From Hymenobacter jeollabukensis (GTDB lineage: Bacteria; Bacteroidota; Bacteroidia; Cytophagales; Hymenobacteraceae), in contig NZ_VAJM01000020.1 of NCBI RefSeq assembly GCF_005771675.1, positions 1 to 64,000 of the forward strand: a stretch of 64,000 nucleotides of DNA, given 5' to 3'. The translations under genes were made by a program, and so were the position numbers. Positions 28,739 through 33,570 of the stretch are shown one piece after another. The notes beneath the pieces were generated by a model. It saw only the letters and a program-made list of their open reading frames with translations. It searched no databases and was not told where the DNA came from. Each line of letters starts with the position of its first letter. Position 1 is the stretch's first letter.

Positions 28739-29824
28739 CTACTCGTTCATCACCCGGTCCTGGTGCTGGATGGATTCGAGGTGGATGGCGTCGAGGAAGC
28801 GGTGAATGAAGCCTTCACTCAGGCCTAGTTTGGCACCTTTCCGCACGCCCCGGTCCACGATTTCCTGCCAGCGGCCGGGCTGCAGGATGGTGATGCGGTT
28901 GTCCTTCTTGTAGCGCCCGATCTGCTCGGCCACCCCCATGCGCTTGCTGATCAGCTGCAGGATTTCGTCGTCGAGGTGGTTGATTCGCTCGCGCAGCTGG
29001 GCCAAGGCACTGAGGAAGTCCGGCTGGTCGGTGGTTTCGCGGCGCCACACGATGCCGGCCAGCAGCTCGGCCAGGCGCTCGGGCGTCACCTGCTGGGCCG
29101 CGTCGCTCCAGGCCGCGTCGGGGTCCTGGTGCGCCTCGATCATCAGGCCGTCGAAGTCGAGGTCGGCGGCCTGCTGGGCCAGGGCGGGCAGCAGCTCGCG
29201 GCGGCCGGCAATGTGGCTGGGGTCGCAGAGGATGGGCAGCTCGGGGAAGCGGCGCTTCATCTCGATGGGCAGGTGCCACATGGGCGCGTTGCGAAACTCC
29301 GTCTGCCCGTAGCTGCTGAAGCCCCGGTGAATCAGGCCCAGCGGCCCGGTGCCCACTTGGCGCAGGCGCTCCACGGCGCCGGTCCACAGCTCCACGTCGG
29401 GGTTGAGCGGGTTTTTGATGAGCACCGGCCGGTCGACCCCGCGCAAGGCGGCGGCCACTTCCTGCACCGAGAAAGGGTTGACGGTGGTGCGCGCCCCCAG
29501 CCACAGCACGTCCACGTCGAAGGCCAGGCAGTCCTCCACGTGCTTGGCGGTGGCCACTTCCACGGCCACCGGCAGGCCGGTCAGCTCGCGGGCCCGTATC
29601 AGCCAGGGCAGACCCCGCGTGCCGATGCCCTCGAACAGGCCCGGCTTGGTGCGCGGCTTCCAGATGCCGGCGCGCAGCAGGTTCACGCGCCCGGTGGCGG
29701 CCAGGCGCTGGCAAGTATCAATAACCTGCTGCTCGGTTTCGGCCGAGCACGGCCCGGCAACGACCAGGGGCTTGTCGGCAAGGAGCGGGTTGGGTTTGGT
29801 GGTAAGCGGGGCCGTGGGGTTCAT
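28739..29824 (-). CDS. Bifunctional DAHP synthase/chorismate mutase (type II)
   Basis: The first and a later step of aromatic amino acid synthesis in one chain: erythrose-4-phosphate plus PEP to DAHP, and chorismate to prephenate. The 361-residue product has a DAHP synthase domain (about 15-260) with KPLVVAGPCSAETEQQVID, RAGIWKPRTKPGLFEGIGTR and LCDPSHIAGRRELLPALAQ. A chorismate mutase AroQ domain (about 270-345) follows with LAQLRERINHLDDEILQLIS and RMGVAEQIGRYKKDN. This fusion is standard in Bacteroidota. It is the last gene of the operon, separated from tyrA by 235 bases containing a nested palindrome. Confidence 0.93.
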   Translation of the reverse strand: MNPTAPLTTKPNPLLADKPLVVAGPCSAETEQQVIDTCQRLAATGRVNLLRAGIWKPRTKPGLFEGIGTRGLPWLIRARELTGLPVAVEVATAKHVEDCLAFDVDVLWLGARTTVNPFSVQEVAAALRGVDRPVLIKNPLNPDVELWTGAVERLRQVGTGPLGLIHRGFSSYGQTEFRNAPMWHLPIEMKRRFPELPILCDPSHIAGRRELLPALAQQAADLDFDGLMIEAHQDPDAAWSDAAQQVTPERLAELLAGIVWRRETTDQPDFLSALAQLRERINHLDDEILQLISKRMGVAEQIGRYKKDNRITILQPGRWQEIVDRGVRKGAKLGLSEGFIHRFLDAIHLESIQHQDRVMNE

Positions 29825-30059: not shown

Positions 30060-30905
30060 TCACTTGATGATGCGGCGGATGTGGTTGGCCTGCTCGATGA
30101 GCTGGGCGAAGGCGGCGTAGTCTTCCTGCGCCAGCAATTCGCGCATGCGCTGCAGCTGGTGCAGGTGCTCGTCGAGCACGTCGAGCACGTTCAGGCGGTT
30201 TTGGCGGAAGATGGGCACCCACATGGCGGGCGAGCTTTTGGCCAGGCGCACAGTGGAGGCGAAGCCCCCGCTGGCCAGGTCGAAAATGCGCTGCTCCTCC
30301 TTCTCCTTTTCCAGCACCGTGAGGGCCAGCGCAAAGGAGGTGATATGCGAAATGTGCGAGACGTAGGCCGTATGCACGTCGTGCTCGGCCGCGTCGAGGT
30401 AGACCAGGCGCATGGGCAGCTGCCGAAACAGCGTTTCCACTTGCTGCAGCGCGTCCGGGTCGCTGCCGGCGGCGTCGCAGATGACCAGGGTGCGGCCGGC
30501 AAACAGGTCCGGCACGGCGGCTTCGGGGCCCGAGTACTCGGTGCCGGCCATGGGGTGCACCGCCACGAGGCGGCCCCGGCGCGGGTGCCCGGCCACGGCG
30601 GTCAGCAGCGCGGCCTTGGTTGAGCCCGCGTCGATGACGATTTGCCGTTCCGTCAGCACATCGAGCACCCGCGGCAGCAGGGTGAGCAGCCCGTCCACCG
30701 GCACGGCGGCCACCACGAGGTCGGCCGGCTGCACGGCCGCCGCCAGGTCGGGCGCGGCTTCGTCGATGAGGCCCAGCGCCAGGGCTTTCTGCAGGTGCGC
30801 CGGGTTCTGGTCGACGCCGATGATGCGCGTGGCCAGGCCCTGCTGCTTCAGGCTCAGAGCCAGGGAGCCGCCGATGAGCCCCACGCCGATGATGGTTACT
30901 ATCAT
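30060..30905 (-). CDS. tyrA: Prephenate dehydrogenase
   Basis: Oxidatively decarboxylates prephenate to 4-hydroxyphenylpyruvate for tyrosine. The 281-residue product opens with the NAD-binding loop IIGVGLIGGSLALSLK, then has DAGSTKAALL, the active-site segment AVHPMAGTEYSGPEAAVPDL and the helical dimerisation domain with AYVSHISHITSFALALTVLE. No ACT domain. It begins 41 bases after the aminotransferase stop; a REP-type hairpin starts five bases upstream of its ATG. Confidence 0.93.
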   Translation of the reverse strand: MIVTIIGVGLIGGSLALSLKQQGLATRIIGVDQNPAHLQKALALGLIDEAAPDLAAAVQPADLVVAAVPVDGLLTLLPRVLDVLTERQIVIDAGSTKAALLTAVAGHPRRGRLVAVHPMAGTEYSGPEAAVPDLFAGRTLVICDAAGSDPDALQQVETLFRQLPMRLVYLDAAEHDVHTAYVSHISHITSFALALTVLEKEKEEQRIFDLASGGFASTVRLAKSSPAMWVPIFRQNRLNVLDVLDEHLHQLQRMRELLAQEDYAAFAQLIEQANHIRRIIK

Positions 30906-30909
30906 GAGA

Positions 30910-31006
30910 GTAGCGCGGGCGTCAGCCCGCGTTTTTCAGAACGAAATCAGGAAAGGGAATCAGCCACGGCAGTATCCGGGAGGACGCGGGCTGAAGCCCG
31001 CGCTAC
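30910..31006. repeat. REP-type paired hairpin element, invades aminotransferase 3' end
   Basis: Two hairpins, 30910-30932 (GTAGCGCGGGCGTCAGCCCG...) and 30984-31006, are inverted copies of each other with one mismatch, 51 bases apart. Each is itself a stem of about 8 bp with a 4-base loop. The right hairpin and spacer lie inside the aminotransferase frame and supply its last ~19 codons; the left hairpin touches the tyrA start. Confidence 0.85.
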
Positions 31007-32170
31007 GGGCCAGCCCGCTTCGGCCAGGCGCTGCTGCGCCTCCGTCAGCACCGCCGTGGGCTGGCACAGGCTGAGGCGCACGAACCCGTTGCCGTTGGAG
31101 CCGAAAATGCCGCCGGGGGTGATGAACACCCGCGCCCGGCTCAGCACCGCGTCGCTGAGGGCGTAGCCGTCGGCGTAAGCGGCCGGCACCCGCGCCCACA
31201 CGAACAGGCCTACCTGCGTCCGGTCGTAGGCGCAGCCCAGGGCGTCGAGCAACTCGAACACCTGCTCGCGGCGGGCGCGGTAAGTGGCGTTCAGCCCGGC
31301 CGACCACTCCGGGCCGAGATGCAGGGCGGCGGCGGCGGCCAGCTGCACCGGCAGGAACATGCCCGAGTCCATGTTGCTTTTGAAGCGCAGCACCTGCTGC
31401 AGGAGGTCGGCGCGGCCGGCCAGCAGGCCCACCCGCCAGCCCGCCATGTTGTGCGACTTGCTCAGCGAATTCAGCTCCAGGGCCACTTCGCGGGCGCCGG
31501 GCACGGCCAGCAGGCTCAGCGGCTCGTCGTTGAGAATGAAGCTGTAGGGGTTGTCGTGCACCAGCAGGATGCCGTGCTGCCGGGCAAAGGCCACCAGCTT
31601 TTCCAAGGCCGCCGCCGAGGCTCGGGCGCCGGTGGGCATGTGCGGGTAGTTCAGCCACATGAGCTTCACGCGGCTCAGGTCGCGGCGGGCCAGGGCGGCC
31701 AGGTCGGGCAGCCAGCCGTTGGCCGCCGTCAGGTCGTAGTCGACGGGTGCGGCGCCGCTGAGCTGCACGGCGGCGCGGTAGGTGGGGTAGCCGGGGTTGG
31801 GAATCAGGGCCTCGTCGCCGGGCTGCAGAAAGGTCATGCACACGTGCACGATGCCCTCCTTGGAGCCGAGCAGCGGCAGCACTTCCGCTTCGGGGTCCAG
31901 CGTCACGCCGTAGCTGCGCCGGTACCAGTCGGCCACGGCCTGGCGCAGGGCGGGCACGCCCCGGTAGCTCTGGTAGGCGTGGGTGTCGGGGCGCAGGGCG
32001 GCGGCAGTCAGCGCCTGCACCACGCTGGGGTGGGGCGGCAGGTCGGGGCTGCCGATGCCGAGGTTGATGACCCGGGCGCCGGCGCGGTTCAGCCCGTCGA
32101 TTTCGCGCAGCTTCTGCGAGAAGTAGTATTCCTGAATGGGCGCCAGGCGCTCGGCTACGGGTATGTTCAT
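30947..32170 (-). CDS. PLP-dependent aminotransferase (class I/II), aromatic operon
   Basis: Probably transaminates phenylpyruvate and 4-hydroxyphenylpyruvate to Phe and Tyr, given its position between pheA and tyrA. The 407-residue product has VINLGIGSPDLPPHPSVVQA, the PLP-lysine motif SLSKSHNMAGWR, the aspartate-containing WLNYPHMPTGA segment and a late ARVFITPGGIFGSNGNGFVR with the carboxylate-binding Arg. The natural end appears to be near AEAGWPV; the following VARASARVLPDTAVADSLS is encoded by the REP element at 30984-31006 and its spacer. Start ATG at 32170. Confidence 0.88.
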   Translation of the reverse strand: MNIPVAERLAPIQEYYFSQKLREIDGLNRAGARVINLGIGSPDLPPHPSVVQALTAAALRPDTHAYQSYRGVPALRQAVADWYRRSYGVTLDPEAEVLPLLGSKEGIVHVCMTFLQPGDEALIPNPGYPTYRAAVQLSGAAPVDYDLTAANGWLPDLAALARRDLSRVKLMWLNYPHMPTGARASAAALEKLVAFARQHGILLVHDNPYSFILNDEPLSLLAVPGAREVALELNSLSKSHNMAGWRVGLLAGRADLLQQVLRFKSNMDSGMFLPVQLAAAAALHLGPEWSAGLNATYRARREQVFELLDALGCAYDRTQVGLFVWARVPAAYADGYALSDAVLSRARVFITPGGIFGSNGNGFVRLSLCQPTAVLTEAQQRLAEAGWPVARASARVLPDTAVADSLS

Positions 32171-32186
32171 GGTCGTTGTTTTTCGT

Positions 32187-32366
32187 GTCATCCTGAGCAA
32201 AGCGAAGGACCTTGTTCGAACACTGCACAGTGGGTTAAGTCCTGGCTTCGACGTTCTGGTGATTGGGCATCGATGGGTGCATTTGTTGGCGTTTAGGGGT
32301 GGTTGCGCATTGTTGGTGGTGTTGGTGCGGGGTTGGAGGAAGTTCCTTCGCTGCGCTCAGGATGAC
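32187..32366. repeat. Inverted-repeat element between pheA and aminotransferase
   Basis: Arms of about 26 bp, 32187-32212 (GTCATCCTGAGCAAAGCGAA...) and 32341-32366 (...TTCGCTGCGCTCAGGATGAC), are inverted copies with a few mismatches, separated by 128 bp without a gene. The GTCATCCTGAGC/AAGCGAAGGA word is a frequent intergenic palindrome in Bacteroidota genomes. Confidence 0.8.
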
Positions 32367-32395: not shown

Positions 32396-33210
32396 TCAGT
32401 AAGTCCCTCCCTTTCGGTACACGCCCAGCACCCGCACGCTCTCCGCTATCTGGTCCAATTCGGCCAGGGCACGGCGGAAGTCCTCGGGCGCGTCGAACTC
32501 CAGGTCGGCGTGGAAGAAGTATTCCCAGGTGGTGCCGGGCCGCGGAAACGACTGCAGCTTGCTGAGGTTGATGCCGCAGGCGGCCACCCGCGTAAGCACC
32601 TCGGCCAGGGCGCCGCGGCGGTGGGCGGTGTGGAAGTACAGCGAGGCTTTGTTGGCGCCCTCGGCCGGCGCGGCATCGGCGGGGCGCTGCACCACCAGGA
32701 AGCGCGTGTAGTTGTCGGCGGCGGAGTGAATGTCGGGCGCCACGATGTCGAGGCCGAACAACCGGGCGGCCAGCTCGCCGGCCACGGCGGCCACGCCCGT
32801 CAGCTGCTGTTCGTGGATGCGCTGGGCGCTCAGGGCCGTGTCCTCCGTCTCGGCTGGTCCAGGAAGCCGGTACACTGCTGCAGGGCCATGGGGTGGGAGT
32901 GCACCTCGCGCAGGGCGGCCAGCGTCTGGCCGGGCAGGGCCATCAGGTGCTGGCGAATCCGCAGGTACACCTCGCCGGTGATGCGCAGCTCGGCCTGCTG
33001 CAGCAGGCGGTAGTTGGGCAAAATGCTCCCGGCAATGGAGTTTTCGATGGCCATCAGCCCGGCGCTGACTTCACCCGCCGCCACCTGCCGCAGCACTTCG
33101 GCAAAGGTGGCGCAGGGGCGCACCGTGCCGAGCCGGGGGCCGAAGTAGTGGCCGGCGGCAACCTGGTGGAAGCTGCCGGCGAAACCCTGAATGGCAACGG
33201 AATGCGTCAT
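32396..33210 (-). pseudogene. pheA: Prephenate dehydratase, frameshifted
   Basis: Converts prephenate to phenylpyruvate. The frame from the ATG at 33210 encodes AIQGFAGSFHQVAAGHYFGP, MAIENSIAGSILPNYRLL and HSHPMALQQCTGFLDQ, then leaves the family pattern (PRRRTRP) and stops at 32830. The remaining protein is in the next frame from about 32851: ETEDTALSAQRIHEQQLTGV, the catalytic NYTRFLVVQ and an ACT domain (ASLYFHTAHRRGALAEVLTR, GINLSKLQSFP). Relative to the family about eight residues are missing at the junction, so a deletion of 3n+1 bases near 32851-32856 is likely. Both halves are otherwise intact, so the lesion is recent, an assembly error, or bypassed. First gene of the operon. Confidence 0.85.
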
Positions 33211-33222
33211 GCGAACGGAAAT

Positions 33223-33251
33223 AAAAAAAGGGCCTCCGCGCTGCGGGGCCC
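33223..33251 (-). terminator. Proximal attenuator terminator
   Basis: On the minus strand a 9-bp GC stem with one bulge (arms 33243-33251 and 33230-33239) is followed by seven T residues (33229-33223). It lies between the second leader peptide and pheA. Confidence 0.8.
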
Positions 33252-33282
33252 TGGTGGTATGCTGGTCGGTGAGTGAGTTGGC

Positions 33283-33363
33283 TCAGACTGCGCAATAGGG
33301 ACCCCGCTGCTTCCGGTAGAAGCAGTAATAGCAGCCAAAAAAGAAGCAGGCGGTGCGGAGCAT
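33283..33363 (-). CDS. Second Phe/Tyr leader peptide, 26 aa
   Basis: An ATG at 33361-33363 opens a 26-codon frame closed by TGA at 33283-33285. It reads MLRTACFFFGCYYCFYRKQR followed by GPYCAV: four Phe and four Tyr, six of them plus one more within twelve codons. This density, just before a terminator and an aromatic biosynthesis operon, is the classic mark of an attenuation leader. Stalling for lack of Phe- or Tyr-tRNA would favour antitermination at 33223-33251. Confidence 0.8.
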   Translation of the reverse strand: MLRTACFFFGCYYCFYRKQRGPYCAV

Positions 33364-33383
33364 GAGCGGGCTGAAACTGGGCG

Positions 33384-33414
33384 AAAAAAAAGCGCCTCCG
33401 GGGCAGGAGGCGCT
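33384..33414 (-). terminator. Distal attenuator terminator
   Basis: On the minus strand a perfect 9-bp stem (AGCGCCTCC, arms 33406-33414 and 33391-33399) with a 6-base loop is followed by a run of seven to eight T residues (33391-33384). It lies between the first and second leader peptides. GAGGC in the upstream 33444-33452 segment could pair with GCCTC of this stem and act as antiterminator. Confidence 0.85.
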
Positions 33415-33455
33415 TGTAAGGTCAGGGGTGATGCTGCTACAAAGAGGCCTCGCTG

Positions 33456-33515
33456 CTACGCGTGAGCGTAGTAGAAGTAGTAGCTAAAAAACGTCGAGGC
33501 CTGCGAGGTCAGCAT
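33456..33515 (-). CDS. First Phe/Tyr leader peptide, 19 aa
   Basis: An ATG at 33513-33515 begins MLTSQASTFFSYYFYYAHA, closed by TAG at 33456-33458. Seven of nineteen residues are Phe or Tyr, in FFSYYFYY near the end. A longer frame runs upstream to 33692 but this ATG is 18-25 bases downstream of the predicted transcription start. AGGCCTCG at 33495-33502 within the coding region can pair with 33444-33451 downstream, the expected 1:2 hairpin of an attenuator. Confidence 0.8.
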   Translation of the reverse strand: MLTSQASTFFSYYFYYAHA

Positions 33516-33539
33516 GGGGGTATTCGATGCGGAATAAGC

Positions 33540-33570
33540 CAAAGATGGAGAAGCCCGGCGAGGAATGCAA
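33540..33570 (-). promoter_or_regulatory. Promoter of the aromatic operon
   Basis: On the minus strand TTG (33570-33568), a 20-base spacer and CATCTTTG (33547-33540) fit the Bacteroidota promoter form TTG-N19/20-TAnnTTTG with one change. It lies 25 bases upstream of the first leader ATG, after the stop of the preceding gene at 33702. Confidence 0.55.

Follow-up and report, generated by a model that had tools for sequence, protein, structure and literature searches.

Two serial leader-peptide attenuators with phenylalanine and tyrosine codons very probably precede the pheA operon in Hymenobacter and related Bacteroidota

Introduction

The pheA gene of Escherichia coli is controlled by a leader attenuator, in which a short ORF rich in Phe codons and a set of alternative hairpins are followed by a terminator before pheA. 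The pheA locus described here, from a member of Bacteroidota, likewise has a leader ORF, alternative hairpins and a terminator in front of pheA, but it differs from the E. coli leader in using Phe and Tyr codons, in containing two modules and in belonging to another phylum.

A single attenuator is described as the norm (PMC3641672). The leader mRNA of the Salmonella mgtCBR operon harbors two leader ORFs and two attenuators, which sense two different signals, ATP and proline, according to the same article (PMC3641672). Two leader ORFs with two attenuators are also present here; in contrast to mgtCBR, the codon content does not assign them different signals, as both leaders contain Phe and Tyr codons in all 63 tandem regions identified below, and the operon is biosynthetic. 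Elsewhere, one sensor is repeated. Tandem homologous riboswitches for one ligand are referred to as 'pseudo-cooperative' with a more digital response (PMC9481103), and multiple T-boxes have been noted upstream of thrZ and trpE (PMC2494555). Our locus resembles the tandem riboswitches in that the same sensor is repeated, each copy taking its own terminator decision, with a steeper response to be expected (PMC9481103), and it resembles the T-boxes of thrZ and trpE in the serial use of one sensor (PMC2494555). Unlike in both, the sensor would be the translating ribosome instead of an aptamer or a tRNA-binding RNA.

In Flavobacterium psychrophilum, a member of the same phylum, clues to leader-peptide attenuation have been described before amino acid operons, and the pheA and hisG genes are preceded by 5′ elements without Rfam hits (PMC9723704). 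Leader-peptide attenuation as such is thus not new in the phylum. Our locus shares with F. psychrophilum a structured 5′ region before pheA, whereas a tandem arrangement is absent from the account given in the relevant section of that study (PMC9723704). The Bacteroid-trp motif (RF01692), a candidate cis-regulatory RNA of Bacteroidetes that is linked to trp by its name (PMC2864571), has by comparison no gathering-score match in the 64,000 nt stretch of DNA that was analyzed here (hereafter the window) and none in the trpE locus of the same genome up to an E-value of 1. We found no literature report of tandem Phe/Tyr attenuators in Bacteroidota, nor of tandem leader attenuators sharing an amino acid specificity, in a search that covered subscription journals and, for the former, supplements only thinly.

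Here we analyze the pheA leader region of the window and of its relatives. The 350 bases before pheA very probably form two serial ribosome-mediated transcription attenuators on one transcript, both of which read Phe and Tyr codons.

Results

Layout of the leader region and its operon

The elements that an earlier note had recognized in this DNA, namely a promoter-like pair, two leader peptides each with a terminator, and a downstream operon of pheA, an aminotransferase gene, tyrA and a DAHP synthase/chorismate mutase gene, were all located, the genes by NCBIfam matches (Table 1). The promoter-like pair ends 24 nt before leader 1, and a similar pair occupies the same place in all four genomes of the genus that have pheA, the window included. 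Among the 90 upstream regions of the family introduced below, a loose Bacteroidota promoter pattern was found in 43 and a strict one in nine. In the window, a simple scanner detected terminator 1 and missed terminator 2, and it detected no sigma-70-type promoter.

By the promoter patterns used, the space between the two modules is free of promoter-like pairs in all 63 tandem regions, and a separate promoter for module 2 was rejected on this count. The transcript would start upstream of leader 1, judging from the promoter-like sequences. As the start codon of leader 2 comes 20 bases after the T-run of terminator 1, the second leader would be translatable only once RNA polymerase has cleared the first terminator.

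Table 1. Leader region of pheA, in minus-strand order from 33570 to 33211 (promoter-like pair, leader 1, terminator 1, leader 2, terminator 2, then pheA), and genes of the operon; positions are those of the window
Feature	Position	Strand	Details
Promoter-like pair	33540..33570	(-)	TTG + 20 bases + CATCTTTG; Bacteroidota-type −33/−7 look, by consensus only
Leader peptide 1	33515-33456	(-)	MLTSQASTFFSYYFYYAHA; 19 codons + stop TAG
Module 1 conserved hairpin	33453..33474	(-)	last control codons CTACTACGC with GCGTAGCAG, stop codon included
Module 1 antiterminator strand (region 2)	33436..33457	(-)	duplex of −19.9 kcal/mol with 33419-33402
Intrinsic terminator 1	hairpin 33415-33390, T-run 33391-33384	(-)	−18.9 kcal/mol
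Leader peptide 2	33363-33283	(-)	MLRTACFFFGCYYCFYRKQRGPYCAV; 26 codons + stop TGA
Module 2 conserved hairpin	33307..33325	(-)	control codons CTGCTTC with GAAGCAG
Module 2 antiterminator strand	33296..33311	(-)	within leader 2; duplex of −24.1 kcal/mol with 33253-33239
Intrinsic terminator 2	hairpin 33252-33229, T-run 33229-33223	(-)	−18.2 kcal/mol
pheA, prephenate dehydratase, two frames	32396..33210	(-)	NCBIfam; frame broken near 32855 in the assembly
Class I-type aminotransferase	30947..32200	(-)	best-matching model, LL-diaminopimelate aminotransferase; under all curated cut-offs shown
tyrA, prephenate dehydrogenase	30060..30905	(-)	above the NF006307 cut-off
DAHP synthase fused to chorismate mutase	28739..29824	(-)	below NCBIfam cut-offs

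Only prephenate dehydrogenase passed a curated NCBIfam cut-off among the operon genes. The break in pheA reflects a genuine loss or else an error of the assembly: read by eye, the window at 32840-32880 (minus strand) is 19 bases shorter than the copy of another genome of the genus (G002), in which the frame is open. A second DAHP synthase/chorismate mutase paralogue with 54-55% identity occurs in all eight genomes of the genus (loci L238-L243). The idea that a leader precedes every DAHP synthase was rejected, as the six loci read show no aromatic-rich short ORF before the second paralogue.

Conservation of leaders and terminators in the family

A pheA match was found in 168 of the 204 genomes of the family; in the window's genus (g1), it was found in four of the eight genomes including that of the window, the other four giving no match to the pheA query. 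We studied the upstream regions of 90 of the 168 pheA-bearing genomes, window included, comprising the 30 best-scoring regions and 60 that we picked across genera. A module was defined as a leader plus a terminator. For tandem counts, frames were required to have a terminator below −10 kcal/mol and starts read as TTG were dropped, an exclusion that also removed spurious frames of two genomes (G078 and G201). The end of module 1 in one genome (G050) was placed by a special rule, and this module was omitted from the duplex test described below. In these bacteria, translation appears to make little use of Shine-Dalgarno starts.

At least one Phe/Tyr leader with a terminator was present in 90/90 regions. 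The tandem pair was found in 63 and a single module in the other 27. By genus, tandems account for 4/4 regions in g1, 55/66 in g4 (Hymenobacter) and 4/9 in g6, and single modules for 7/7 in g2, 4/4 in g5, 5/9 in g6 and 11/66 in g4. The earlier note had proposed to look in relatives for Phe/Tyr codon runs and paired terminators; the codon leaders and terminators are kept throughout these regions and the pairing in the tandem ones. A fixed rule that does not consider terminators recovered at least one leader in 90/90 regions and two in 61/90, while in dinucleotide-shuffled sequences it yielded at least one leader in 28/1800 and two in 0/1800. Only three frames lacked a terminator, each with five F/Y in ten codons. 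The mean energies of the terminator hairpins were −19.0 kcal/mol in module 1, −15.9 kcal/mol in module 2 and −19.2 kcal/mol in single modules. The start codon, the F/Y run and the terminator are retained in both modules of all 63 tandem genomes.

Phe and Tyr codons in both leaders

F and Y are both present in both leaders of the 63 tandems, with a minimum content of one F and two Y in leader 1 and of three F and two Y in leader 2. The two residues replace each other at 6/8 control columns of leader 1 and at 9/10 of leader 2. The ends of the leaders are biased: of the 59 g1/g4 tandems, 55 have Tyr as the final control residue of leader 1 and 38 have YY as the final two, and leader 2 ends with FF in 30, FY in 26 and YY in three. 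This bias leaves room for a partial division of labour, in which a different amino acid may dominate at each leader.

Conserved hairpins and cognate antiterminators

Alignments of the two modules (A2 and A3) drew on 42 g1/g4 tandems out of 59; in A2, the row of the window starts three bases inside the leader. In these 42 sequences, RNAalifold placed in each module a hairpin made of the last control codons: in module 1 CTACGC/GCGTAG, which takes in the stop codon, and in module 2 TTCTTC/GAAGAA. It also recovered terminator 1, and three pairs only of terminator 2. The six pairs of the module 1 hairpin are formed in 97.2% of cells and those of the module 2 hairpin in 94.8%, with changes on both sides at 1/6 and 2/6 pairs, respectively. 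Such modest covariation is attributable to the little variation of the hairpins, which also encode the control residues. The antiterminator strand lies directly 3′ of the control-codon hairpin. In module 2, 77.7% of antiterminator cells are paired and 5/9 pairs have changed on both sides, while three pairs are broken in 17-19 of the 42 sequences.

Taken together, the hairpin and terminator of module 1 are paired in 96.7% of cells with 18 both-side changes (slid controls, at most 59.8%), and the hairpin and antiterminator of module 2 in 84.6% with 27 both-side changes (slid controls, at most 61.0%). None of 500 shuffles equaled the alignments in cell counts or in covariation score. Pairs with a double change were at least as numerous in 23/500 shuffles for module 1 and in 76/500 for module 2, and further pair types in 92/500 and 161/500, so that two of the five measures per alignment do not stand clear of the shuffles.

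The strength of the antiterminator duplex was compared with controls across the family regions. Cognate duplexes averaged −17.3, −18.3 and −17.0 kcal/mol in module 1, module 2 and single modules, respectively; the means were −11.6, −15.9 and −11.2 kcal/mol with the arms of dissimilar genomes and −11.1, −12.1 and −10.4 kcal/mol with shuffled strands. The cognate duplex was stronger than the non-cognate one in 54/62 cases for module 1, 46/63 for module 2 and 26/27 for single modules, which makes module 2 the weakest case for a cognate antiterminator. The leader region thus contains two short ORFs with a codon run for the product amino acids of the operon, an intrinsic terminator that separates the leader ORF from the first structural gene, and an antiterminator that is exclusive with the terminator and backed by covariation, more weakly in module 2.

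The earlier note had also proposed a classical 1:2 pairing by AGGCCTCG within leader 1. This pairing exists in the window (33502-33495 with 33452-33445), but the three congeners aligned with it read AGGCCCAG; AGGCCTCG was therefore rejected as a conserved 1:2 arm, being confined to the window among the four. The conserved hairpin is instead formed by the final control codons, joined in leader 1 by the stop codon.

Folding with the ribosome at defined codons

The leader RNA was folded, as the earlier note had suggested, by modeling the nascent RNA with a ribosome set at selected codons. When its A site held the last control codon, the terminator 5′ arm was taken with mean probabilities of 0.78 (module 1), 0.69 (module 2) and 0.75 (single), compared with 0.33, 0.31 and 0.19 when the stop codon was in the A site. 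The probability was lower at the stop codon in 63/63, 60/63 and 27/27 cases; the fall exceeded 0.2 in 61/63, 50/63 and 27/27, leaving two module 1 and 13 module 2 copies without a fall of this size. In the model, ribosome position decides the fold: antitermination results when the ribosome is at the control codons, and termination when it is at the stop codon, which matches the classical logic.

Without a ribosome, region 3 was mostly taken, at means of 0.66, 0.70 and 0.60 in module 1, module 2 and single modules, respectively, and it was taken below 0.5 in only 15/63, 8/63 and 8/27. Untranslated leaders may consequently read through, and a clear state in which no translation means termination is absent from the folding model in many relatives. 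Module 1 of the window scores 0.45 without a ribosome, to which the long-range pairing of AGGCCTCG may contribute. In equilibrium folding of three genomes, the terminator of module 1 wins at most ribosome positions; the switch would thus have to be kinetic, decided during RNA synthesis.

Comparison with known RNA families and other leaders

Membership in the Rfam family Phe_leader (RF01859) was rejected, as the window scores 20.3 of the required 55 bits (E-value 0.58). Two Chitinophaga loci (L171 and L138) reach 34.1 and 32.8 bits, also below the cut-off. A T-box or other known riboswitch was likewise rejected, with no Rfam model matching at its cut-off.

Short ORFs occur before other amino acid genes of the same genome. 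A 29-codon ORF with LWWWSS precedes trpE (L212, contig C1 near 597434, minus strand) and is likely a Trp leader, and a short ORF with GHHHHHSS precedes hisG (L213, contig C24 near 33537) and is likely a His leader. No match to ilvD was found in this genome. To judge from the trpE and hisG ORFs, leader attenuation may be general in this genome.

Distribution in the phylum and origin of the second module

In other families of the order, the fixed rule found a leader in 4/40 regions (shuffles, 12/800), one of them showing two frames; this count is a lower bound, since the start of many genes lies well before their domain match and the reading was limited to the last 560 bases. Of the best 80 named records that match Hymenobacter-type PheA, 77 have at least one leader (shuffles, 31/1600), which is no unbiased rate because the set was chosen by similarity to Hymenobacter PheA. 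When terminators were considered, 17 of the 80 named loci are tandem, five from Hymenobacter, H. roseosalivarius among the species with the pair, and 12 from Chitinophaga (L138, L140-L142, L153, L155, L158, L159, L169, L171, L177 and L184). One locus (L156) was scored as single because its two frames have one terminator in common, and upstream sequence was short in some loci (48 bases in L204 and 173 in L203). All 12 Chitinophaga tandems carry a Trp codon close to the end of leader 1, which would perhaps sense all three aromatic amino acids.

In a draw of 70 regions across the phylum, a leader with a terminator was present in 24/24 regions of four families (f23, f24, f26 and f27), 22 of them single. 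One f27 genome (G551) carries a tandem, while one doubled count in f26 and the second leader in G595 look spurious. A leader was also found in 1/2 regions of f37 and 1/1 of f34. In the other 14 families sampled, among them f25 of the same class, there was no leader in 43 regions. These counts indicate a patchy distribution of the leader, which is common in some sections of the phylum and missing from others.

When the tandem state is placed on a tree of 129 PheA rows, five changes are required, at least four of them forced by well-supported branches; the count does not distinguish gain from loss and carries a long-branch warning. A covariance model of module 1 found module 2 as its next match in 9/9 pheA-bearing genomes (E-values of 1.2e-8 to 0.0054). 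Among the 150 best first-look candidates scored per genome, it matched no other place below an E-value of 0.02, nor did it give any match in two congeners that lack pheA. Such matches suit an origin of module 2 by duplication, with the caveat that common F/Y codons and terminators raise the similarity of the modules. Over its N-terminal 117 residues, Hymenobacter-type (g1/g4) PheA is up to 68% identical to some Chitinophagales PheA and about 45-54% identical to PheA of the genera g2, g5 and g6 of its own family, which hints at a transfer of the operon.

Discussion

Leaders, terminators, conserved hairpins and cognate antiterminators are present at the pheA locus of the window and conserved among its relatives. 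The proposal of the earlier note, two serial leader-peptide attenuators with Phe and Tyr codons before a Phe/Tyr operon, is backed by conservation, pairing and folding. Weighing against it, a single module suffices in 27 of the 90 family members, and the pheA frame of the window is broken.

The mechanism that we propose would couple ribosome and polymerase at the leaders. When charged tRNA is scarce, a ribosome would be held at the Phe/Tyr codons, leaving the antiterminator strand free; this strand would take the terminator 5′ arm, and RNA polymerase would continue. A ribosome that has reached the stop codon would cover or melt the antiterminator strand, and the terminator would form. Because both checkpoints have to be passed, the probabilities of read-through should multiply. 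This would keep leakage low when Phe and Tyr are plentiful and give a steeper rise when either is short. The earlier note had envisaged graded or AND-type control; such a multiplicative, steeper response to the same signal would be the simplest reading of the pair. As the tandem is conserved in many relatives, the cell probably must lack Phe or Tyr at two checkpoints for the enzymes to be produced.

The pair might instead divide the labour, leader 1 sensing mainly Tyr and leader 2 mainly Phe, and so act as a two-input gate and not as a steeper switch. The endings of leader 1, Tyr in 55/59, and of leader 2, FF in 30 and FY in 26, point in this direction, but F and Y occur together in both leaders of all 63 tandems, and the folding model frees the antiterminator to nearly the same extent whether the ribosome stalls at the first control codon or at the last (0.77/0.78 for leader 1 and 0.73/0.69 for leader 2); we consider a gate of this kind unlikely. 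It is quite improbable that just one module is active and the other a relic of duplication. The 27 regions with one module and the match of the module 1 model to module 2 are what a relic would predict, whereas both modules keep their start codon, F/Y run and terminator in 63 genomes as well as their hairpins and cognate antiterminators, and tandems recur in Chitinophaga.

The two remaining alternatives take the decision away from codon reading. Short, conserved and aromatic-rich as they are, the leaders could be arrest peptides or functional small proteins whose nascent chain sets the outcome; however, F and Y replace each other at the majority of control positions, and the non-aromatic residues follow the RNA pairing, the KK codons after FF being paired with TTC codons, which renders this reading very improbable. 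That a T-box or riboswitch, binding tRNA or a metabolite, drives the terminators with the ORFs being incidental is hardly credible: such RNAs generally work through a terminator and an antiterminator, yet in the window no Rfam family attains its gathering score, the four sub-threshold Rfam matches to the region include no T-box, and ORFs with F/Y are found in 90/90 family regions.

We therefore favor two serial attenuators reading the same codons. The conserved pair of leaders with one specificity makes it testable whether stacked ribosome-read checkpoints sharpen a starvation response, and close relatives, some with one module and some with two, naturally provide material for such a comparison. 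The Phe/Tyr leaders before pheA would form a class found in several families of the phylum, for which no Rfam family reached its cut-off where we looked. A broader reading, which we regard as evenly balanced, is that this pheA leader class, which occurs in many though not all of the sampled families of the phylum, senses Phe and Tyr together and has been doubled in series several times, giving a steeper, multiplicative attenuator. On that reading, and with no better than an even chance, the doublings would have taken place in Hymenobacter together with the window's genus, in a second group of the family, in Chitinophaga and in one genome of a further family. If this is true, the tandem leaders would be a ribosome-read counterpart of the tandem 'pseudo-cooperative' riboswitches, evolved repeatedly from copies of one sensor.
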